IMG/VR virus record: IMGVR_UViG_3300000176_000034
Span: 1 to 31,112 of that record
Strand: one strand, 5' to 3'
DNA from: a virus
Length of the DNA stretch: 31,112 nt
Below the pieces are notes generated by a model, which had not been told where the DNA came from, made no database searches, and worked only from the letters and a program-made list of their open reading frames with translations. Numbering within the stretch: the stretch's first letter is position 1; each line of letters starts with the position of its first letter. This document shows, one piece after another, positions 3-26,126 of the stretch. The translations under genes and the position numbers were made by a program.

Positions 3-3000
3 AAAGTTGCATGGTACGCATGGGGCGGAGATGCTGGTTATTCATGGGCAAAGAAAGTTGTTGCTCATTTGAACAGAGAAGATGAAATTAAAAAGGGAGA
101 CGTTGCAGGACACCCTTTTCATGGAAATCAATACGAAAATGGTGAGAGTGGCAAAGCCTTTGCAAGGTCAAAAGATTTTATTTTAAATAATGTTTTTACA
201 ACCCGCTCTATAGAGGGTTCGGAGTGGTCTAACTACACCATTAATTCAGAAGAAAAAGAAAACTACACGGAAAACCTTTCCAAAATAATCAGCAACCCAG
301 AAGGTTTTAAAAAGGCTCTTGCCGAATTTCCAACCAACGGAAAGCCAGACCCTGCAAAAGCAGTTATGGCAATGCTCGGCAACCTAGGTAAACCTTCGGT
401 TGTAAGTGGGTCGGAGTTTTCAAAGGGCGACGAATATCAAAGATTATTTACTGGACTTTCAGCGCCCGTAGGGAAAGGCGCAGAAGTGGTTGCGGGGTTT
501 GCGCACAGCGACAACCCAACATACGGTGGGGGAATTTACGGAACAGCCTTCTACACCAGCGAGTTGCCAAGCGAAGCGGTTGAGTACGCCAACGAGCGTG
601 GCGACGCTAGAGACCATATGCTTTTGCAGATGAGGCTTGACTGGTCTAACCCAGACGCAAGCAACGCTGGAAGTGGCAGGAGCGTAAACTATAACTTTTC
701 CAAAGAGGCAAACTTTAACGATTTGTTAAAACAAAACGGGTTTGATAAGGGAACAGCCGACCTACTTGCGGAAGGACTTAACGAAACTTCCTCGGACGCA
801 CTTAGCGGTTACAAGTATACCAATTCTGGTTATGTCAGGGTTTATGACCGTTCCATCTTGCAAATGAGCGACACCTACGCCTCGTGGGGAGAAACGGCGC
901 CAACTTCAACTGGCGACCAAATTTTTGCAAACCAGAAAGTTAATACTGATACTGGCGTATCAGCAGAGCCGATAAATCGTGCATTGGCAAAAGGCGATGT
1001 CGCAGGTCACGAATTCCATGGCAACCAGTGGACACAAATTGGCGGACACACCGCAGATGAACACCCAAAGAAATGGGCAAAGGCAATCATCAGCGAACTA
1101 CAAGCGGGTCGCTCTCCAAGCATCGGACAACACGAACTAGGTATACTTCTTAACAAAGTAGAGCAAAAGCAACTTGAAGGTTCTTTAACTGCTGATGTAA
1201 CTAACCTGCGTATTGACGGTACAAACCTTATGGGCCAAGAAGGTCTTGGTTATACACGTGAAGAGATGCCCCAAATTCCGCCAAAGATGCGTGAAGAATT
1301 TGTTGCTGATTTGGAAAAACAAGGGATTAGTTCAACAAGGGAACTTGTTGACCCAAGAAGTCTTCAGCCTTCACAAAGTGAAATTGGGCTTGCTCACGTG
1401 GCGCACCTTTACACCGTTGCCAATGGTCAAATCCCACAAACAAAATATCTTCTTGCATCAAAGGATGATTATGTTGTTGATGGTCACCACAACTGGGCAG
1501 CGGACGTAGCGCTCGCTCTTAATGACCCATCACAGAAGGTTCCAATTCTTCGCATAGACGCACCCGCACGTGAGGTGATTAGTCTTGGTCTTCAATGGGC
1601 AACAGAGCACGGCTTTGAATCAGTCCCCCTAGGAAAAGCCCGCCAAGAAGCAATTGAAAAAGCGGACAAGAAAAAAAATCTAAATAAAAAGCATTCCAAA
1701 GCAGTAAAAGCAGCAATTATTGCTGGAGTTGTTGGTGTCCCATTGGCAATAAAAGTTGCAGAAAAGGCGGCGATTAATGCGACTACAGATGCACTAGGAA
1801 TCATTGCCCGTAATGCAGTAACAACTCATGTGGCAATTGATTCAACAGCCATGGGCGACGCTTTGGCTGGAATTTATGCAGAAGCGAGCAGCGCTGGAGT
1901 TGTTTCCATTGCATCGATGCTTGGTCTGGCAGATACATCAGCAGGGAAGTACATTGCTAACGTTCTACAAAATAGCGCTTCCGTTTTAAATGGAATTGAC
2001 CAAACAACCAAAGAAATGATTATTAGCGCTCTTCAAGATGGGCTAGTAAGTGGAAATTCAACAGACCAAATCAGCACGTCAATTAATGACGTTGTAGACA
2101 ATCCACAACGTGCAGACCTAATTGCCGTAACTGAAGTTAACCGTGCTTACAACGCCGGAATCATAGATATGCTTGCAAACTCAGGCGCTACTCAGTTCAA
2201 TTGGATTGTCCGTGAGAACGGATGCACAGTTTGCTCTGAGCAAGAAGGTGTCCATGACATTGGAGACGACACACCGCCGCTTCACCCAAATTGTCAATGC
2301 GACATTGGCCAAGTGGTAGAAAAGTCAGCCGTCCGAAAAGGCGATGTGGTCGGCCATGCGTTTCATGGAAACCAGTGGCAAGAAGGAACCGGTGGGGTTT
2401 CACCTGAAAAAATTAAAGCCGCCTGCAACAGTAGGGGCGCACTAGACAAACTTGCTGAGATTTTTGGAAATACCGGGAACTACCCAACAGCCGGTGGATG
2501 CTTAGTGGTGGCCCAAGCCATTCAAAAACTTTATCCAAATGGTCAAATGAAGGCAATTGTAACAAGCAGCGAAACCCACTTGCAGTCGTACGCAGAGGCG
2601 AATCGCCCACCAATGGTTCAGCACTTTGTTGTTCAAATTGGAAAAGACCGTTATCTTGATGCCGAAGGAGTTCAGAATGAACACGAACTTCTAACAAAAT
2701 ACGGATTCCAAATGCCCGACGGCAAATACAGCGAGCAATTAATTGAAGCAACACCTTTTGTGGTGGACCACGCAAGCACGTACATTCTTTCTCCAGAAGG
2801 CGGCGCCGACAAATTTGCAGACTTTTTACGCAGTTACAGCCCAACAACTACCGTCACCAAAAAACAGGCAAGACTTATAAAAGCGGTGGTAGAAAAAGTT
2901 TTATCTGTTGCAAAGGGCGACGTGGCGGGGCACGAGTTTCATGGAAACCAGTGGACCGGGGGGCAAGGTTCAGCAAGCCTAAGTTCTTTTAAAGAATCTT

Positions 3001-3389
3001 TCGATAAGGCTTTTGCGGGCAGCCCCTTTTCGGCTTTTGTGAATCACTACAGCCTTGAGGAAATGAAGAGCGAGGGAATGAAGCCGCTCCTATCAGCAGA
3101 TGGCAAAACCGGCCTATTAATTCATGACCACGGTGACGGCCGAATTGAGGCTACGGCCCTATTTAACAATGGTGAATCCGGTGCTGGGCTCCAATTGCTA
3201 AAAAACGCCATTGACAACCACGGGGTCAACTACGTAGAATGCTTTGGACCCGCCTTACCAGTTATGTATGGCAAGTTAGGTTTTGAGGTAGAAAGCAAGA
3301 ATTCGTTTGACCCGCAGTACGCCCCAACAGACTGGAATTACGACAAGTTTGGGACGCCCGATTACTACACGATGAGGATTACAAAATGA
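3..3389 (+). CDS. Multidomain MuF head protein / polyvalent protein, 5' partial
   Basis: The frame is open to the left edge, so the true start lies outside the window; a TTG at 69 has no ribosome binding site. Visible modules, in order: an ART-like region (nt 396-938; Arg in RLFTGL, then GTAFYTS, then a VRVYDRS end); a ParB/Srx-like region (nt 1110-1640; VVDGHHNWAA); the MuF/SPP1 gp7 head-morphogenesis domain (nt 1740-2330; AVTEVNRAYNAG, then CTVC and PPLHPNCQC); a papain-like fold (Cys codon 2499 in GGC, His 2622 in QHF, Asp 2658 in YLDAEG); and a GNAT-like domain (nt 2970-3386; MYGKLGFEVES). Four KGDxxGHxFHGNQ motifs precede modules. MuF proteins sit near the portal inside the capsid and can carry effector domains; Iyer and Aravind called such phage proteins polyvalent. 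The MuF call is strong. The papain-like and GNAT-like calls are good, and the ART-like call is tentative. Enzyme activities are inferred. Confidence 0.88.
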   Translation, partial: KVAWYAWGGDAGYSWAKKVVAHLNREDEIKKGDVAGHPFHGNQYENGESGKAFARSKDFILNNVFTTRSIEGSEWSNYTINSEEKENYTENLSKIISNPEGFKKALAEFPTNGKPDPAKAVMAMLGNLGKPSVVSGSEFSKGDEYQRLFTGLSAPVGKGAEVVAGFAHSDNPTYGGGIYGTAFYTSELPSEAVEYANERGDARDHMLLQMRLDWSNPDASNAGSGRSVNYNFSKEANFNDLLKQNGFDKGTADLLAEGLNETSSDALSGYKYTNSGYVRVYDRSILQMSDTYASWGETAPTSTGDQIFANQKVNTDTGVSAEPINRALAKGDVAGHEFHGNQWTQIGGHTADEHPKKWAKAIISELQAGRSPSIGQHELGILLNKVEQKQLEGSLTADVTNLRIDGTNLMGQEGLGYTREEMPQIPPKMREEFVADLEKQGISSTRELVDPRSLQPSQSEIGLAHVAHLYTVANGQIPQTKYLLASKDDYVVDGHHNWAADVALALNDPSQKVPILRIDAPAREVISLGLQWATEHGFESVPLGKARQEAIEKADKKKNLNKKHSKAVKAAIIAGVVGVPLAIKVAEKAAINATTDALGIIARNAVTTHVAIDSTAMGDALAGIYAEASSAGVVSIASMLGLADTSAGKYIANVLQNSASVLNGIDQTTKEMIISALQDGLVSGNSTDQISTSINDVVDNPQRADLIAVTEVNRAYNAGIIDMLANSGATQFNWIVRENGCTVCSEQEGVHDIGDDTPPLHPNCQCDIGQVVEKSAVRKGDVVGHAFHGNQWQEGTGGVSPEKIKAACNSRGALDKLAEIFGNTGNYPTAGGCLVVAQAIQKLYPNGQMKAIVTSSETHLQSYAEANRPPMVQHFVVQIGKDRYLDAEGVQNEHELLTKYGFQMPDGKYSEQLIEATPFVVDHASTYILSPEGGADKFADFLRSYSPTTTVTKKQARLIKAVVEKVLSVAKGDVAGHEFHGNQWTGGQGSASLSSFKESFDKAFAGSPFSAFVNHYSLEEMKSEGMKPLLSADGKTGLLIHDHGDGRIEATALFNNGESGAGLQLLKNAIDNHGVNYVECFGPALPVMYGKLGFEVESKNSFDPQYAPTDWNYDKFGTPDYYTMRITK
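93..134 (+). repeat. KGDxxGHxFHGNQ linker motif, copy 1
   Basis: Encodes KGDVAGHPFHGNQY just before the ART-like module. It differs from the other copies at many synonymous positions, so the conservation is at the protein level. Confidence 0.85.
990..1031 (+). repeat. KGDxxGHxFHGNQ linker motif, copy 2
   Basis: Encodes KGDVAGHEFHGNQW between the ART-like and ParB-like modules of the MuF polyprotein. Confidence 0.85.
2337..2378 (+). repeat. KGDxxGHxFHGNQ linker motif, copy 3
   Basis: Encodes KGDVVGHAFHGNQW, directly after the MuF domain and before the papain-like module. Confidence 0.85.
2913..2954 (+). repeat. KGDxxGHxFHGNQ linker motif, copy 4
   Basis: Encodes KGDVAGHEFHGNQW between the papain-like and GNAT-like modules. 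Confidence 0.85.
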
Positions 3390-4911: not shown

Positions 4912-5141
4912 GCAAGAGAAAAAAAATACAAGCGCTGCAATATGAATTGGAAGCAGCAAATAATACGATTAATAATCTCATGGATAATTCTATGGAAGAG
5001 CGTTGTCTTTTGACATACTGTTTTATGGTTGCCGCAAGCAGGCTTTTTGTTCATCAAGAAAATTACAAAGATGTAGACCATTTTGCTGCCGACCTTTTTG
5101 AAGAAATTCGTAAACAGTACAACGGGAGTACTTTTGCTTGA
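4908..5141 (+). CDS. Hypothetical protein with N-terminal coiled coil (77 aa)
   Basis: The ATG overlaps the preceding TGA (ATGA). The product begins with a basic stretch (MSKRKKIQALQYELEAAN) that looks like a short coiled coil, followed by a Cys-containing helical region and an acidic C-terminus. No family was recognised. The gene ends 8 bases inside the deformylase start region, so the two are probably translationally coupled. Confidence 0.6.
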   Translation: MSKRKKIQALQYELEAANNTINNLMDNSMEERCLLTYCFMVAASRLFVHQENYKDVDHFAADLFEEIRKQYNGSTFA

Positions 5142-5613
5142 AATAGTTCACTACCCGAACATGGTTCTGCAAACGCCTACAAATGACGTTACAGAGATTA
5201 ATGAAGACCTTGTAAAGGTAATCGCACGCATGGGCGAGGTCATGTACAAACTTAATGGCGTAGGGTTAGCCGCTAATCAAATTGGAATCAGCAAGCGTCT
5301 TTTTGTTTATGAGATGGGCGACAAAGTTTTGCGTGCCGTTATTAATCCACAGATTTTGGAAATGGGTGGACATCAGGTTGGAACAGAGGGATGTCTTTCT
5401 ATCCCTGAAAAATATTGGGACATTCCACGTTACGACAAAGTTCACATGATTGGGCTAAACATAAGCGGGGAAACAATTGAAGTGGAAGCAGAGGGTTTAG
5501 AGGCCTGCATCTTCCAACATGAGATTGACCACTTAGATGGCAAAACAATAATTGACCGCATTTCCAAAAAGGAAAAATGGGAAGCCTTCGGGTTTGAGTC
5601 TTCCAAAAACTAA
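5134..5613 (+). CDS. def: Peptide deformylase
   Basis: This enzyme removes the formyl group from the N-terminal Met of new proteins. All three family motifs are present: GVGLAANQ (residues 42-49), EGCLS (85-89) and QHEIDH (128-133); Cys87, His129 and His133 bind the metal and Glu130 is catalytic. The frame could open at an ATG at 5083, but homology begins at LEIVHYP, and a TTG at 5134 has GGGAG (5124-5128) 5 bases upstream, so I chose TTG. At 159 aa it is slightly short, with a short C-terminal tail after the HExxH helix, as in other phage deformylases. It overlaps the previous gene by 8 bases and is followed by a strong hairpin. Phage deformylases are known from marine cyanophages and are thought to support rapid protein synthesis. 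Confidence 0.93.
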   Translation: MLEIVHYPNMVLQTPTNDVTEINEDLVKVIARMGEVMYKLNGVGLAANQIGISKRLFVYEMGDKVLRAVINPQILEMGGHQVGTEGCLSIPEKYWDIPRYDKVHMIGLNISGETIEVEAEGLEACIFQHEIDHLDGKTIIDRISKKEKWEAFGFESSKN

Positions 5614-17934: not shown

Positions 17935-19170
17935 ATGATAAGTCTCTTCACTCCAAGCCACAACAGCAAGTATCTTGACGCAGCACTTGAGTCGCTCGTT
18001 AATCAAACCTACTCAGACTGGGAGTGGGTCGTTCTTTTAAACAACGGCGCCACATGGACCTGCGATGATGCAAGGGTAAAACTTTACGAAAGCGATTCTT
18101 CTGCTTTGATTGGTCTTCTGAAAAACGAAGCCGCCGCTCTTTGTACTGGCGAATACTTGGTTGAGTTTGACCACGATGACCTTCTTTCACCAAACGCTTT
18201 AGAAGAAATTGTTAAGGCTTTTGAGGAAAATGAAAACGTTGGATTTGTTTATTCTGATTTTGCTCAAATCAATGAAGACGGAACACCAAACCTTGTTGAG
18301 TTTGATACGACGCACGGTTGGGAGTTCTACGATGATGAGCACGGCTACCACGTATGCAAATCGCTTTCTCACCACCCTGCAAACCTTGCCTATGTTTGGT
18401 ACGCCCCAAACCATGTAAGAGCATTCCGTAAATCTGTTTACGATGACATTGGCGGCTACGACGTAACTATGGAAGTTTTGGACGACCAAGACATCATTTG
18501 CCGTATGTACCTTGCTTCAGATTTCTACCACATTCCAAAGAACCTTTACCTGCAGCGTGTACACACTGAAAATTCTCAGGCCAAGGCTGACCTCAATGCA
18601 AAGATTCAGCAAGAGACACACAACGTTTACGCCAAGTACATTGAACTGATGATTTTAAAATGGGCAACCGAAAATGATTTGGAATGCCTAGACCTTGGTG
18701 GCGCACACAACCCCGCCCCCGGTTACGTAACGGTAGACATTGAAGCGCCCGCTGATTACATTGGCGATGTTTTTGAAATTCTTTCATCGTTTGATGATGG
18801 AAGCGTTGGAGTAATCCGTGCTGTTGACTTTTTGGAGCACATCGAAAACAAGATTGAATTGTTTAACGAGATGTACAGAGTTTTGGCAGAGGGCGGAATG
18901 ATTCTTAGTTTCACCCCATCAACAGATGGCCGTGGAGCATTCCAAGACCCAACACACGTTGCTTTTTACAATGAAAACTCGTTTTGGTATTTCACCAGCG
19001 AAAGCCACCGTAAGTATGTTCCAGCAATTAAGGCAAAGTTTCAACGCAGCCGCCTGATGACATACTTTCCAAATGAGTGGCACCGCCAAGTGAATATCTC
19101 ATATGTTTCAGCAAACCTCATTGCCCTAAAAGACCCAAATAACCGTTACGGCGGACAACTGGACTTCTAA
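17935..19170 (+). CDS. Glycosyltransferase family 2 - methyltransferase fusion
   Basis: The 411-aa protein has two enzyme domains. Residues 1-240 are a GT-A glycosyltransferase: SLFTPSHNSKYLDAALESL, the nucleotide-sugar binding region WVVLLNNG, and the metal-binding EFDHDD (77-82). Residues 250-400 are a class I SAM methyltransferase: CLDLGGAHNPAPGYVTVDIE (motif I), GVIRAVDFLEHI (the family's DxLEHI), and YRVLAEGGMILSFTPSTDG. The methyltransferase is followed by AFQDPTHVAFYNENSFWYFT. It probably adds a sugar and methylates it, or modifies two sites on one target. It lies among fibre genes, so the target may be the fibres or capsid; host wall glycans are an alternative. Confidence 0.9.
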   Translation: MISLFTPSHNSKYLDAALESLVNQTYSDWEWVVLLNNGATWTCDDARVKLYESDSSALIGLLKNEAAALCTGEYLVEFDHDDLLSPNALEEIVKAFEENENVGFVYSDFAQINEDGTPNLVEFDTTHGWEFYDDEHGYHVCKSLSHHPANLAYVWYAPNHVRAFRKSVYDDIGGYDVTMEVLDDQDIICRMYLASDFYHIPKNLYLQRVHTENSQAKADLNAKIQQETHNVYAKYIELMILKWATENDLECLDLGGAHNPAPGYVTVDIEAPADYIGDVFEILSSFDDGSVGVIRAVDFLEHIENKIELFNEMYRVLAEGGMILSFTPSTDGRGAFQDPTHVAFYNENSFWYFTSESHRKYVPAIKAKFQRSRLMTYFPNEWHRQVNISYVSANLIALKDPNNRYGGQLDF

Positions 19171-19226: not shown

Positions 19227-19274
19227 ATGGCTAGGCACTTTTTGGAATCAACTAGCCAAGATACGGTGAAATAG
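19227..19274 (+). CDS. Short leader ORF (15 codons) before the giant fibre
   Basis: TAAGAT (19215-19220), 6 bases and an ATG at 19227 form a possible leaderless start. The frame [15 protein letters not shown] ends in a TAG (19272-19274) that overlaps the GTG start of the 1864-aa fibre (TAGTG). That fibre start has no ribosome binding site of its own, so coupling from this ORF could set its translation. A separate TACGGT (19262-19267) lies 6 bases before the fibre GTG, so direct leaderless initiation is the alternative. Confidence 0.42.
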
Positions 19275-22200
19275 TGTCAAGGGTTGCCTACTCTCAGAAT
19301 AGTTACGTCGGGGCCGCCCCGAACGCCTATCTCTACACGGCTATTGGCAGTTCTGACACCACAATCGTTCTTACAAATACGACCGGTGGTTGGTCGGGTC
19401 TTGGAACTAATGGTTTCTACCTCGCCATCGATTTTGGAAATGCCGCCGAAGAAAAGATTTACGTACCAGCCGGTTCTTACAACTGGACTGGTCTTACGGT
19501 TACCCTTACTGGAGTAACTCGTGGAATTGACGGCACCGTTGCCGAGCCACACTCAATAAATGCAATCGTTGTTCCAATTATTACTGCAATTGACATTGCT
19601 GAAGCAAACGCTGCGGTATGGAACACAATTGGAAAAGTCCAATCGCAAGGTGACCTCATCATTGGTTCACAAGCGAACCAATTCAGCAGACTTCCAATTG
19701 GCCCCCAAGGAAAGTTTCTAGCATCAGACGGAACTACTGCTTACTGGGCAACTGGTGGATACCAAGGGACACAAGGTGCACAGGGTTACCAAGGGCAGAC
19801 CGGACCACAAGGGACGCAAGGTGTAACCGGAAGTCAAGGGCAACAAGGGTATCAAGGGAGCCAAGGCTCACAAGGAAATCAAGGTCTAACTGGTAACACT
19901 GGTCCTCAAGGAAATCAAGGTAATACTGGTTCACAAGGCTCAACAGGTTTGCAGGGACCACAAGGTAATACTGGTTCAACAGGAAGTCAAGGAGCGCAAG
20001 GCTATCAAGGCTCAACAGGTTCCACAGGACCACAAGGTTCTACGGGTTCGCAAGGCTCAACAGGAAGTCAAGGCTCAACTGGAAGCCAAGGCTCCACGGG
20101 TGCGCAGGGGAGCACGGGTGCGCAGGGGTCTACGGGTACACAAGGTTCAACTGGTCCTCAAGGTTTAACGGGTTCACAAGGTTCCACCGGAGCACAAGGA
20201 CCAATTGGTTCAACTGGTTCGCAAGGTGCTCAAGGTTCTCAAGGCAATCAAGGCCTCACTGGTTCCACGGGTGCGCAAGGTGTTCAAGGAACGCAAGGCT
20301 CAACTGGAACGCAGGGTTCTACTGGTGCACAAGGCTCACAAGGTTTTCAAGGTTCAACTGGTTCACAAGGTGCAACCGGAAGCCAAGGGGCTCAAGGCTA
20401 TCAAGGTTTTCAAGGCGTAACTGGAGCAACCGGCGTTCAAGGAACACAAGGAAGCACTGGTTCAACTGGTGCTCAAGGTCTTACTGGTCCACAGGGTTCA
20501 CAGGGGTACCAAGGAGCAACTGGTGTTCAAGGTTTAACGGGAACACAGGGTGCAACTGGAGCGCAAGGGAATCAAGGTTTTCAAGGGACGCAAGGAACAA
20601 CTGGCTCACAAGGCGCAACCGGTTCTCAAGGCGCAACTGGACCGCAAGGTTCTCAGGGGCTACAAGGAACAACTGGCTCTCAGGGTGCAACTGGTCTTCA
20701 GGGGCCTCAGGGATATCAAGGCTCAACTGGAAGTCAAGGTTCAACGGGTTACCAAGGAGCAACAGGAAGCCAAGGTGCGACTGGAAGCCAAGGTTACCAA
20801 GGGTACCAAGGTCAAACTGGACCACAAGGTGTTACTGGACTGCAGGGACCCCAAGGTGTTCAGGGTGCAGCGTCTTCTCTTAACGCACACGCCGCAGTTG
20901 TTGCAGTTGACTATTCAGGAGTAACAAACTCTGGCGTTTACGTAGCAGGAACACTTGGAGCAGATGGTGGTTACGGTATTGGCGCAACACTAACGGCATC
21001 GGCAAATGGTGTTTTAACCATCGATGGTGTTAACCCAGCAGTTGGTCAACGTGTACTGGTAAATAATCAAACCCCACAAACTCGTAACGGTATTTACCTC
21101 GTAACAAATTCTGGTGGAACAAGTGCCAAGTGGATTCTTACTCGTGCTTCAGACTATGACAATAGCAATCAAGGTGAAGTTTCTGTTGGTGACTATGTTT
21201 TTTGTACCAATGGAACTTTGTACGCAGGCACTACTTGGACGCAAATTGATTACGGTTCTCTTTCTGACTTAAGTATTATAATTGGAACAGACAATATTCA
21301 CTTTGCGGAAACAGGTGGAATTGGACCTCAGGGTTATCAAGGACCACAGGGTGTTGGTGGCGCCCATGGTTACTACGGTTCGTTCTGGGATACAACAACA
21401 CAATCTGCCGCAGTAGTAAATACTGCCTATGACATAAATCTAAATAGTTTTGGTGACACAAGCGGAATATCCTTAACAACACCAAATATTATTATTGCAA
21501 GTCCCGGTGTTTACAACGTTCAATTTTCTGCTCAGTTTATTAGAAACTCTGGTGGAACTGGTAATGCGTATGTTTGGATTAATCAAAATGGAACAGATGT
21601 TGCCGCCTCTGCCGGTGATGTTCAACTAGCAGGTAACAACTACGCAATTATTCAATCGTGGAATTACCTAATCACCACTACAACCGCTAATGAATACGTA
21701 AAATTCCGTTGGGCGACAACCGATTTATCAATTAAAATAGTAACTCTCGCTGCAACTTCTTTTGCACCTCTTACACCTTCAATGATTGTTACCGTGCAAC
21801 AAGTCATGTACACCGAAACTGGTGCACAAGGGGCTCAGGGACCTCAAGGGGGTCAGGGCGCACAAGGCTCTAATGGTGCACAAGGTTTTCAAGGAATCTC
21901 CGGAACTAATGGAACGCAGGGTGCTGCTGGTGCACAAGGTGCGACTGGTTCTCAGGGGGCACAGGGGGCACAAGGTTCAATAGGCTCTCAAGGTGCAACT
22001 GGTTCACAGGGGCAACAGGGTGCGCAAGGTTTTACTGGTTCGCAAGGTGCAATTGGATACCAAGGATACCAAGGCGCAACTGGCTCGCAAGGAAGTCAAG
22101 GATACCAAGGGTCAACTGGTTCACAGGGAAATCAAGGAAACCAAGGTGCCACTGGAACAACTGGTGCACAAGGGTCTCAGGGTTCTCAAGGACAAACCGG

Positions 22201-24868
22201 TTCGCAAGGTTCTACCGGTGCACAAGGCTCTACCGGCGCTACTGGTTCTCAAGGAACGCAAGGTCTAACTGGTGCTCAAGGCTCAATTGGATACCAAGGG
22301 TATCAAGGCTACCAAGGACCACAAGGCGTTATTGGACAAACTGGTTCAATCGGTCCGCAGGGATATCAAGGTGCAACCGGTCTTCAGGGCAATCAAGGCA
22401 ACCAAGGTTCAACTGGAGCGCAAGGAACTACTGGCTCCCAAGGTACAACTGGTTCGCAAGGAAATCAAGGTGCCACCGGGTCGCAAGGTACGCAAGGATA
22501 CCAAGGTTCAACTGGTGCGACTGGTGCACAGGGGACGCAAGGAATAACCGGCTCTCAAGGAAATCAAGGTTTCCAAGGTTCGGTTGGTGCCACTGGCTCG
22601 CAAGGAACGCAGGGATACCAAGGTCAAATTGGTGCAACTGGTGCCCAAGGTAATCAAGGATTCCAAGGTACAACCGGTGCCACCGGTGCGCAAGGCGTTC
22701 AAGGTTTCACTGGTTCACAGGGACCAATTGGTTATCAGGGTGCAATTGGTTATCAGGGTTACCAAGGCTCAACTGGTGCGCAAGGTAACCAAGGTTTCAC
22801 TGGAGTTCAAGGCCCTCAAGGGAATCAAGGGACGCAGGGTTTAACTGGGCCACAAGGTACGCAAGGTAATACTGGAACGCAAGGACCAACTGGTTACCAA
22901 GGACCTCAAGGGTCACAAGGCGCACAAGGGGCTCAGGGTTATGTCGGTGCACAAGGTGCAACCGGTAATCAAGGACCACAAGGTTACCAAGGACAACTTG
23001 GTTCACAGGGTCCACAAGGTTATGTTGGTACACAAGGTTCGTACGGACGTGGTTACAACGTAACTTCAAACACTTCTTACACAATTGCTGCAAGTGGAAT
23101 TTTTACCTTCTACACAAACTACACAGGTGCGTACGTACCGGGTTCAGTAATTGACGTTATTAGTGCTTCTACTTCTTATTACATGGGTGGAACAATCACC
23201 AATGTAGTGACCGACACAAGCATTACAGTTAACATCACAAGTTCATACGGAAGCGGCGCTTTTTCTGACTGGCAATTCACCATTGGTGGATACGGAAGTC
23301 TTGGAACTGGCTCTGGTACACAAGGGCCGCAAGGGACTCAAGGAGTTCAAGGGAATCAAGGTGTTCAAGGCGCCGGTTACCAAGGTGTTCAAGGCGCTAC
23401 TGGTTCTCAAGGACCTCAAGGTTACCAAGGAAATCAGGGTGCTGGCACTCAAGGAAATCAAGGTTACACAGGTCTTACTGGTGACCCGGGAATTGTTAAC
23501 CAATCCATTGCACCAACCAATACTGGAATTCTATGGATGGATACAACATCCACACCAACAATTGTTCAGGGGTACCAAGGAGTCCCCGGAACTCAAGGTT
23601 CAACCGGTTTACAAGGTCCTCAGGGAAATATTGGTGCGCAAGGAACACAAGGTAGTCAAGGTGCATCCGTCCAAGGGCCTCAAGGGTATCAAGGTGCACA
23701 AGGCGTATACGTATCAGCAAACGGTGTTGCACCAGTTGATACAACTCTTCTTTGGCTTGACAATTCTGCTTCAGGAAATGGAACGCAGGGACCACAGGGG
23801 TCTCAAGGGGCACAAGGGTATCAAGGCGCATACGGTGGACCTCAGGGAACTCAAGGGGCACAAGGCCGTCAAGGGGTTCAAGGGACGCAAGGCTATCAAG
23901 GACCAGCACCACTCGCCGCAATTGGAACGGTTACCGTTGCACCAACGCCACAAGTTACGGTTGGTAACTCTAACGGAACAGCAACATTTAATTTTGGATT
24001 AGTTCAAGGACCACAGGGTTACACCGGAGCCCAAGGGCCTCAAGGTTTTCAAGGAAATCAAGGTTCTACTGGTACCGCAGCATTTGTTGGAGCGCAAGGC
24101 CCACAAGGTTTTCAAGGGAATCAAGGATTTCAGGGGAATCAAGGGAATCAAGGATTTCAGGGCTACCAAGGTTTTCAAGGGACTCAAAGCGGAATCACAA
24201 TTGGAACAACGACAACGCTGGCTTCTGGTTCTCAGGCAACAGTTTCCAATTCAGGAACAGCGGGTGCATCCGTACTTAACTTTGGGCTACCTCAAGGTTA
24301 CCAAGGAAACCAAGCGGGAATCACCATTGGTACAACATCGACTGTTGCATATGGAGTTCAGGCTGCAGTATCAAACGTAGGTACTGCTGGCTCAGCAATT
24401 CTGAACTTCTCGCTACCTCAGGGACCTCAAGGTTATTCAGCAGCAACAACAAATGTTGCAATGAATGCACCGCTTGAGGCATTCCAAGTTGTTACTGCAG
24501 CGCCAACAGCAACTCAAACCATCTACCTTGGCGCTTCTTCAATTTGGTATTTCACTTCGAATTCTGCAAATACATTTGCATTAAACTTCTCCGCCGGTAT
24601 CGCTGGTTCTACAGTTCCTTTAAATACGCTTCTTGCAATTGGACAATCAATTGGTGTAACTGTTCTTGTTAAAAACGGTGCAACAACTTTGTATTATGCA
24701 ACTGGATTCCTAATTGATGGAAACGCCGTTACGCCTATTTGGCAAGGTGGAACGGGTGCGCCAACTGCTGCTGGAGCAGCGAATTCGGTTGACATCTATA
24801 ACTTCACCATATTAAAAACGGCTGCCAATACCTACACAGTTTTGGCCTCAACGAACTACTTTAAGTAA
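19274..24868 (+). CDS. Giant collagen-like tail fibre (1864 aa)
   Basis: Residues 1-160 repeat the anchor domain of the 668-aa fibre ([38 protein letters not shown]). Then come two uninterrupted Gly-X-Y blocks (123 and 135 triplets), separated by a domain of the NGIYLV/GDYVF type (nt 20882-21325) and a TNF/C1q-like beta-domain (nt 21350-21815). After the second block: a small beta-domain, further short Gly-X-Y runs, two P-x-DT-LWLD modules, three beta-modules ending LNFGLPQG, and a C-terminal domain of about 135 residues shared with the 922-aa fibre. The fold would be a trimeric collagen rod with bead-like domains. The start is a GTG without ribosome binding site, overlapping a short ORF. Collagen-like phage fibres are well known; this is a large one. 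Confidence 0.92.
19757..20863 (+). repeat. Collagen-like Gly-X-Y block 1 (123 triplets)
   Basis: The block encodes 369 residues of unbroken Gly-X-Y. X is mostly Ser, Ala, Thr, Tyr, Asn or Phe; Y is mostly Gln or Thr. Pro is rare and confined mainly to X. GSTGSQ units recur, with codon variation. Confidence 0.95.
21821..23035 (+). repeat. Collagen-like Gly-X-Y block 2 (135 triplets)
   Basis: The block encodes 405 residues of unbroken Gly-X-Y with the same Gln/Thr-rich Y position. GYQ triplets are frequent, including runs such as [10 protein letters not shown]. Confidence 0.95.
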
Positions 24869-24870
24869 TC

Positions 24871-25857
24871 ATGCCATTAGCGTCAACTAGCGGTTCATCA
24901 TCACAAGGATTTGGATTTCTTAAAACGTTTCACAAAATCCTTGCTGACAACTTCACCCGCTCTGCAACTCAAGGTGGCCTAGGAACATCAACTAATGGTG
25001 CTACATGGAACTCTATAACCGGAACTTGGTACGTAAACTCAAACAATCAAGCCCAATCAGATGCAACCTCAACTGTATATCCGGTTTCTGCAATAGATGT
25101 AAACTCTTTTAATCAAACCGCCAGTGCAGTTGTTTCAGAGGGAACCGGAGTAGCCGTTTGGGTATCAGCACTAGGAACTTCTTGGTACGCTGCAACAAGT
25201 TACAATGTAAATAGCACGTATGCGTGCAATCCATATTCTTGCAACTGCAGCAATTGTTGCCAGACTTGCAACGTTTCGTGTAATTGCGTTACTACGCCGT
25301 GCACGCAATCTTGTGTAACCTCTCCACAAACCTGTTCGGGTGGAGGCACGTCGTGCTCTGGTGGTGGCTGCAACTGCACTGCTTATGGTGAAAAAGGTGC
25401 TGCGTACTGCTGTGGAAGCGACCCTCTTGTTTGCGTTGACATTCCACCAACTTGTACCGGTGGAGGCACTACCTGTACCTGCACCGGTGGGGGTACTTCG
25501 TGTGACACTTGTGCGGTTCCCTGTAATTGCGTTTCTTGCAATTGTTCTACTTGTTACCAATCTTGTGGTTCTGTTAATTATTACATGAGAATTTTGCAAA
25601 ATTTAAGTGGTGTAGTTAGTACTGTTACAAATGATGTTTCTCTTAGTAGTCAAGCCGTAGCGATTAAAGTGCAGGCAAATGCTGATTCTGGCTCAATTAT
25701 TGCCACCGCTTACTCTGACACTGGGTTTTCAACAGTTTTGGGAACGGCAAATTTTTCACCAACAATTGGGCTTCAGAGTCAATACGCTGGTATAGTAAAA
25801 GCACCTACTAGCAATAGCCAAGGTTCAACAATCACCAGTTTCCGAGCGCAGGTATAA
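24871..25857 (+). CDS. Virion protein with 28-cysteine insert (328 aa)
   Basis: ATG at 24871 follows the fibre stop by 2 bases. Residues 20-110 (HKILADNFTR, GGLGTSTNGATWNSITGTWY) and 235-328 (YYMRILQNLSG, AVAIKVQANADSG) look like two halves of one beta-sandwich, similar to laminin/concanavalin-type domains in phage tail proteins. Residues 119-232 interrupt it with 28 Cys in 114 residues, arranged as CNC, CC, CSGGG and CTGGGT units. The insert could be a disulfide-rich or metal-binding knob at the virion surface. It is the first of several structural genes between the two largest fibres. No family with certain function was recognised. Confidence 0.82.
   Translation: MPLASTSGSSSQGFGFLKTFHKILADNFTRSATQGGLGTSTNGATWNSITGTWYVNSNNQAQSDATSTVYPVSAIDVNSFNQTASAVVSEGTGVAVWVSALGTSWYAATSYNVNSTYACNPYSCNCSNCCQTCNVSCNCVTTPCTQSCVTSPQTCSGGGTSCSGGGCNCTAYGEKGAAYCCGSDPLVCVDIPPTCTGGGTTCTCTGGGTSCDTCAVPCNCVSCNCSTCYQSCGSVNYYMRILQNLSGVVSTVTNDVSLSSQAVAIKVQANADSGSIIATAYSDTGFSTVLGTANFSPTIGLQSQYAGIVKAPTSNSQGSTITSFRAQV
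25225..25566 (+). other. Cysteine-rich insert region (28 Cys in 114 aa)
   Basis: It runs from Cys119 to Cys232 of the 328-aa protein. It contains two related CxGGGTxC sub-repeats (around 25336 and 25456), suggesting internal duplication. The flanking sequence on both sides is normal beta-sandwich composition with no cysteine. Confidence 0.9.
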
Positions 25858-25859
25858 AA

Positions 25860-26126
25860 ATGACAAACGAAGCAGCAAGTGAGCGACCAGCAAGACCTTG
25901 GGATTTGTGGAATAAAAACATTGGTCGTGTGGCTACGGTTGTTGCAGATGAGCGTTTTGAAATTTGCAAAGCCTGTCCTAACTATGTTTCCCTAACCCAC
26001 CAATGCACCGAATGCGGTTGCATTATGAATGCCAAGGTGAAACTTCCAAATGCTTCTTGCCCAATTGGAAAATGGTCCGCAGTAAGTATTTCTTACAAAA
26101 CCGATGACACAAAGAAAGACCAATAA
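25860..26126 (+). CDS. Zinc-ribbon protein (DUF6171-like, 88 aa)
   Basis: The product has the pattern FEICKACPNYV, then QCTECGCIMNAKVKLPN and CPIGKW. The four or five Cys make a CxxC...CxxCxC ribbon that probably binds zinc. Near-identical small proteins (ICKACP...CxxCGCxM...CPIGKW) are common in cyanophages and other T4-like phages, where they lie among structural genes. No role is established. Start is the ATG at 25860 just past the previous stop; its TAA overlaps the next start (TAATG). Confidence 0.82.
   Translation: MTNEAASERPARPWDLWNKNIGRVATVVADERFEICKACPNYVSLTHQCTECGCIMNAKVKLPNASCPIGKWSAVSISYKTDDTKKDQ

Follow-up and report, generated by a model that had tools for sequence, protein, structure and literature searches.

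A cysteine-rich insert in a lectin-like phage protein that probably forms a disulfide-laddered stalk on a tail adhesin

What might 28 cysteines be doing in one short segment of a viral protein that has none elsewhere? The protein is encoded in the window, by which we mean the whole 31,112-nucleotide stretch that was analysed (IMG/VR virus record IMGVR_UViG_3300000176_000034, positions 1 to 31,112), by an open reading frame at 24871-25857 on the forward strand. It is 328 residues long, and every cysteine lies at residues 119-232 (window positions 25225-25566), giving an insert that is 24.6% cysteine between flanks (residues 1-118 and 233-328) with zero; the other open reading frames of the window have 0-9 cysteines each. 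A sequence-only reading of this locus had described cysteine-free flanks around a 28-cysteine insert, which an exact residue count bore out, and had picked out CNC, CC and CTGGGTxC units, all of which are present, the last twice and alongside CSGGGTSC. It had also allowed that the segment might be frameshifted. We found that the reading frame is uninterrupted from flank through insert to flank, that the insert cysteine codons are mixed (15 TGC and 13 TGT), and that a separate 91-kb contig, IMGVR_UViG_3300020718_000010, contains 2,701 bases matching the window at 100% identity. We conclude that a frameshift and an assembly error are both unlikely. The features of the gene and its downstream neighbour are listed in Table 1.

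Table 1. Features of the gene for the cysteine-insert protein and of the adjoining gene (window coordinates).
Feature	Position	Strand	Basis
Whole gene, jelly-roll adhesin-like protein with Cys-rich insert	24871..25857	+	54 members with both halves
N-terminal beta-sandwich half, residues 24-117, Cys-free	24940..25221	+	AF2 pLDDT 83-96; conserved LGT..G..W..G.W and WYAA motifs
Long beta-strand, residues 104-123, sandwich to insert	25180..25239	+	AF2 secondary structure
Ascending arm, residues 119-169, 14 Cys	25225..25377	+	14/28 Cys precede centre; mirror pairing with descending arm
Presumed tip, residues 170-179 (TAYGEKGAAY)	25378..25407	+	Longest Cys-free insert stretch, central Cys gap 11; presumed from relatives
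Descending arm, residues 180-232, 14 Cys	25408..25566	+	Nested Cys pair sums 348-352, all 14
Long beta-strand, residues 227-245, insert to sandwich	25549..25605	+	AF2
C-terminal beta-sandwich half, residues 233-328, Cys-free, GIVKAPxxxxQGST motif	25567..25854	+	AF2 pLDDT 78-98
88-aa RPARPWD protein, 6 Cys (CxxC..CxxCGC..C)	25860..26126	+	phrog_13558, E=3e-15

The 328-residue protein had no significant sequence match in Pfam, PHROGs, NCBIfam or PDB. Likewise, tblastn with the protein or its joined flanks against isolated phages returned nothing even at E=10, the flanks found nothing among plasmids, and no isolated phage was matched by any of three relatives. Homologues were found in viral contigs, upstream of relatives of the RPARPWD gene, and their alignment yielded a C-terminal motif, GI[IV]K[AS]Px4QGxT, that is independent of the insert and retrieved 51 viral stretches when viral contigs were scanned with it. 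A W-motif scan added one member; a scan of genome contigs gave two matches, neither of them significant against the family profile. Generic cysteine patterns (CNCxxCNCxxC and CNCxNCC) were discarded as probes of viral contigs, as their matches were mostly off-frame repeat DNA. The family as we define it comprises 54 distinct proteins from viral contigs, the window's included, found with the strict and a looser C-terminal motif and having both halves of the domain; most members were thus retrieved through the insert-independent motif or the neighbouring gene.

The sequence-only reading had left room for close relatives without cysteine enrichment and had proposed that relatives be searched for the insert and its length variation. 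All 54 two-half proteins carry a cysteine-rich insert, of 87-595 residues with 6-64 cysteines (flanks, 0-3), always at the same site, between a W[WY]xA strand and a strand resembling YYLRLL. The inserts diverge faster than the flanks (for example, 76% against 99% amino-acid identity), and the cysteine columns are invariant in relatives L316, L318, L320 and L333. L318 and L320 have flanks about 99% identical and inserts 76% identical, with every cysteine position and the middle kept; hypervariation of arm residues is a possible explanation of this difference. One viral record encodes two divergent copies of the protein (L297; 2859-3752 and 10848-11759), with 14 and 12 insert cysteines.

An AF2 model of the window protein aligned with 21 relatives gave a confident lectin-like sandwich, with pLDDT of about 78-98 over both halves, in agreement with the earlier proposal that the insert splits a beta-sandwich. 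The predicted base is a two-sheet jelly roll of the kind seen in lectin/CBM-type phage receptor-binding domains. Foldseek against the PDB returned 8zdp_v, 8zdq_v (E 2.8e-4), 8zdo_a and 9n6a, followed by legume lectins; these top matches (E 3e-4 to 1e-2) are the Douge central fibre gp20 and BppU gp23 and the TM4 gp23 receptor-binding domain (8ZDP, 8ZDQ, 8ZDO, 9N6A). The Douge and TM4 domains, which sit on phage tail tips, share the lectin/CBM-type jelly roll with the window base, with 8% identity in the structural match and no detectable sequence relationship. Against predicted viral proteins, the best matches were uncultured-phage proteins, followed by minor tail proteins of Mycobacterium and Gordonia phages. 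The Douge CBM-type domains bind host-surface glycans (PMC13033339). The simplest reading is that the window protein would be a phage adhesin with a putative role in receptor binding.

One clue to what the cysteines do is their number, which is even in all 54 inserts. Evenness held in 32/32 clusters formed by single linkage at 50% insert identity (2^-32 = 2e-10) and in all 20 clusters at 35% (p about 1e-6), a statistic that rests on a moderate number of independent lineages, and G, S, T, N, P, Y, Q and V counts in the same inserts were even about half the time. A preference for even cysteine numbers in exported bacterial proteins has been taken to indicate disulfide pairing (PMC7678975). In 25 of the 54 inserts the total is 2 mod 4, that is, not a multiple of four. 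That all totals are even and nearly half are not multiples of four points to inserts whose cysteines would be fully paired in putative disulfides rather than held in metal clusters.

The sequence-only reading had offered the binding of many metal ions as one of two options. Under it the insert would consist of metallothionein-like or zinc-Cys4 modules that store or need metal, and the CxC and CxxC spacing of the window insert is indeed metallothionein-like, while the adjoining 88-residue protein has a zinc-ribbon-like cysteine pattern. Zn-Cys4 sites by themselves predict totals that are even and divisible by four, a rule that 25 of the 54 inserts break, and to our knowledge metallothionein-type clusters follow no parity rule. 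Histidine is almost absent (0.5 per insert on average), the insert cysteines of many relatives are spaced widely, 10-20 residues apart, and modules pair across two arms, as described below. Cysteine count and spacing across the family thus do not fit metal sites of either type, and we regard this option, disfavoured on all these grounds, as very improbable.

The arrangement of the cysteines in the window insert suggests how they might pair. They are split 14 + 14 about a cysteine-free centre, and when the i-th cysteine from the left is nested with the i-th from the right, the two positions add up to 348-352 in each of the 14 pairs. This near-palindromic spacing has a mean mismatch of 1.07 residues, as against 6.4 when the gaps are shuffled (p = 0.0002; p = 0.003 when the two halves are shuffled separately). 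It can also be seen in L315 and L321 and, more weakly, in L325 and L266; in most relatives, whose arms differ in module length, a one-register mirror test was not significant. In the AF2 model the strands at residues 104-123 and 227-245 extend from the sandwich into the insert and, if paired end to end, have a register of 349-350, which agrees with that derived from the cysteines. Residues 128-224 have pLDDT below 50, most of the insert being at about 40 or less, and an AF2 model of L325, a relative with single-cysteine modules, was not confident in the insert either and matched nothing in the PDB significantly. With insert pLDDT low in both models, a hairpin past the first turns is not predicted by AF2, and the rest of the window hairpin beyond the two strands is putative.

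Many inserts in the family are built as N-terminal repeat modules, a non-repeated middle and then a series of different C-terminal modules. In one type, the first-arm module is CTGGTVSCTDSTNTCTPGGCGT, with four cysteines, and the second-arm module is YTRTQNTNVTT, with none; the counts on first and second arm are 11/11 in L273, 5/5 in L137, 2/2 in L264, L270 and L304, and 1/1 in L286. In another, a first-arm CDQSQVTNTSNPPSGNCC with 3 or 5 cysteines accompanies a second-arm YSCYTSTRTVTNP with one, at 7/7 in L258, L260 and L302, 5/5 in L276, 2/2 in L268, and 1/1 in L287, L289 and L291. With fixed patterns, module counts on the two arms were equal in 16 of 18 scorable inserts, which was reached in 0 of 100,000 permutations, a p-value that is indicative only because the patterns were written after the sequences had been read and the relatives are not independent. 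In L259 and L295 the fixed pattern also matched a tip segment, and the counts are 1 and 1 by inspection.

The arms also covary in cysteine content. Four-cysteine modules ending in CG face the cysteine-free YTRTQNT, and odd-cysteine modules ending in CC face YSCYT with its single cysteine; a cysteine gained on the first arm (CG to CC) is therefore matched by one on the second (YTR to YSC), which keeps totals even despite odd modules. Of two close relatives, L319 has one extra rung compared with L328, with three more cysteines on each arm, and in L271 four CxCG units lie, by eye, opposite four CxxC units. One pair counts against matched rungs: L291 and L298 differ by a two-cysteine module on one arm only. 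Apart from this module, which lies in the descending arm and spans 63 bases in frame, they are identical across all compared bases; the difference may reflect a recent loss or gain of a rung or an effect of repeat assembly.

A disulfide-rich knob without ladder order, in which bonds form locally inside each module or inside a compact tip and equal arms arise, for example, from the trimer packing of separate strands, would account for the four-cysteine CTG..CG modules and the CPSGG..C modules, which are self-contained, and for AF2 not extending the hairpin. Odd-cysteine modules in equal numbers on both arms nevertheless require pairing across arms or between subunits, the cysteine spacing of the window is palindromic, and L319 and L328 gained or lost three plus three cysteines jointly; we consider such a knob unlikely. 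The pairing could instead be intermolecular, with the cysteines joining one subunit to the next in a fibre trimer or a lattice, and a trimeric state is common among phage fibres. Strict evenness per chain is what intrachain pairing predicts, whereas bridges between subunits would be compatible with odd counts, and we give this explanation very little credence.

We conclude that the protein is probably a tail adhesin with a lectin-like base, a two-stranded hairpin stalk laddered by disulfides and a variable tip. From the lectin/carbohydrate-binding-type jelly roll at the base, the chain would exit between two neighbouring strands to build the first arm of an antiparallel hairpin, form the variable tip and return as the second arm. 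Every insert cysteine would pair with another of the same insert, either within a module or from arm to arm in the manner of ladder rungs; for the window protein we propose 14 bridges between the arms. Insert length would change mostly as rungs are added or lost on both arms. The thiols would be made in the reducing cytoplasm and oxidised upon release or in late assembly, and the oxidised insert would be a stalk, stiff and resistant to proteases, that holds the tip out towards the surface of the host. The disulfides, the timing of their oxidation and receptor binding are what we infer for this protein, as is its location in the virion, for which we rely on fibre-type gene neighbours, the fold match to phage baseplate and fibre domains, and adhesin and tail-fibre neighbours in cyanophages. 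Thus the second option of the sequence-only reading, cross-linking, is favoured, with its tough knob replaced by an ordered intrachain ladder forming a stalk with a tip.

The gene that precedes that of the cysteine-insert protein (19274-24868) encodes a 1,864-residue protein that matches Pfam Collagen (E=3e-140) and has long Gly-x-y runs of collagen-like type, in which Gln, Ser and Thr are abundant. The RPARPWD gene lies directly downstream in 37 of the 49 loci with enough downstream sequence, and in 32/43 after omission of the window itself and of loci found via the RPARPWD gene; in cyanophages S-SRM01 and S-CBS2 its homologue comes immediately after genes that carry adhesin-tip and tail-fibre annotations. 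The 88-residue product may act in fibre assembly or in the handling of thiols. The 'gp37-gp38 adhesin tip complex' gene of Synechococcus phage S-SRM01 (L339:2820-3908) has an insertion of its own, rich in Cys and Trp and flanked by Gly-rich stretches; no homology was seen, and the insertion is perhaps convergent. Thioredoxin was found in only one of eight records. A thioredoxin-like gene (L338, the record of L275) lies in the same phage record as a 36-cysteine insert protein. The major capsid protein of the window is nearest, at about 54%, to those of Arthrobacter and Microbacterium phages, an affinity that makes an actinobacterial host plausible. Elsewhere in the window, a long open reading frame (3-3389) has domains set apart by a KGDVxGHxFHGNQ[WY] motif, which occurs four times; by sequence impression, 5083-5613 is a putative peptide-deformylase-like phage gene, and 17935-19170, amid fibre-type genes, encodes an apparent glycosyltransferase and methyltransferase-like protein.

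Phage host range is set by tail adhesins, yet most adhesins of uncultivated environmental phages lack annotation. The analysis turns an odd cysteine cluster into a testable rule, that all cysteines pair and rung numbers match between arms, and the parity and rung-matching tests can be used to flag similar proteins in other metagenomes. If the proposed architecture is correct, these would be among the most disulfide-dense virion proteins and a natural scaffold of adjustable length with a swappable tip, and one would have to ask how correct oxidation is achieved in a protein made in the cytoplasm.

Open-licence PMC texts yielded no paper that describes such a protein. The Douge and TM4 domains belong to cultured mycobacterial phages, and an insert with tens of cysteines is not mentioned in the available part of PMC13033339. 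Tentaclins are also phage surface proteins with proposed receptor binding via a variable hairpin (PMC10743442); identity with them was rejected, as they combine C-type lectin and Ig domains and are diversified by DGRs, with no cysteine ladder. Bovine antibodies with ultralong CDR H3 share a beta-ribbon stalk rising from a beta-sandwich, a cysteine-rich variable knob and a bias to even cysteine numbers (PMC7366855), but have no homology to the family, diversify their cysteines in the knob by somatic mutation, and have no ladder of matched rungs. Cystine ladders are known from theta-defensins, and a ladder-like, 37-residue loop with three disulfides from green-algal HAP2 (PMC6327110); both share parallel disulfide rungs with the proposed stalk, whereas the three disulfides of the HAP2 loop compare with 3 to 32 putative bridges here, on modular arms. 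The protein would be a phage receptor-binding protein of known type, and its architecture may itself be new. We see about an even chance that environmental phages use an undescribed protein architecture here, a modular antiparallel disulfide ladder that can reach some 30 bridges and grows as rungs are gained in matching fashion on two stretches far apart in one chain; it would serve as an adjustable rigid stalk for a swappable receptor-binding tip, although it would be synthesised in a cytoplasm, where disulfide formation is not expected.
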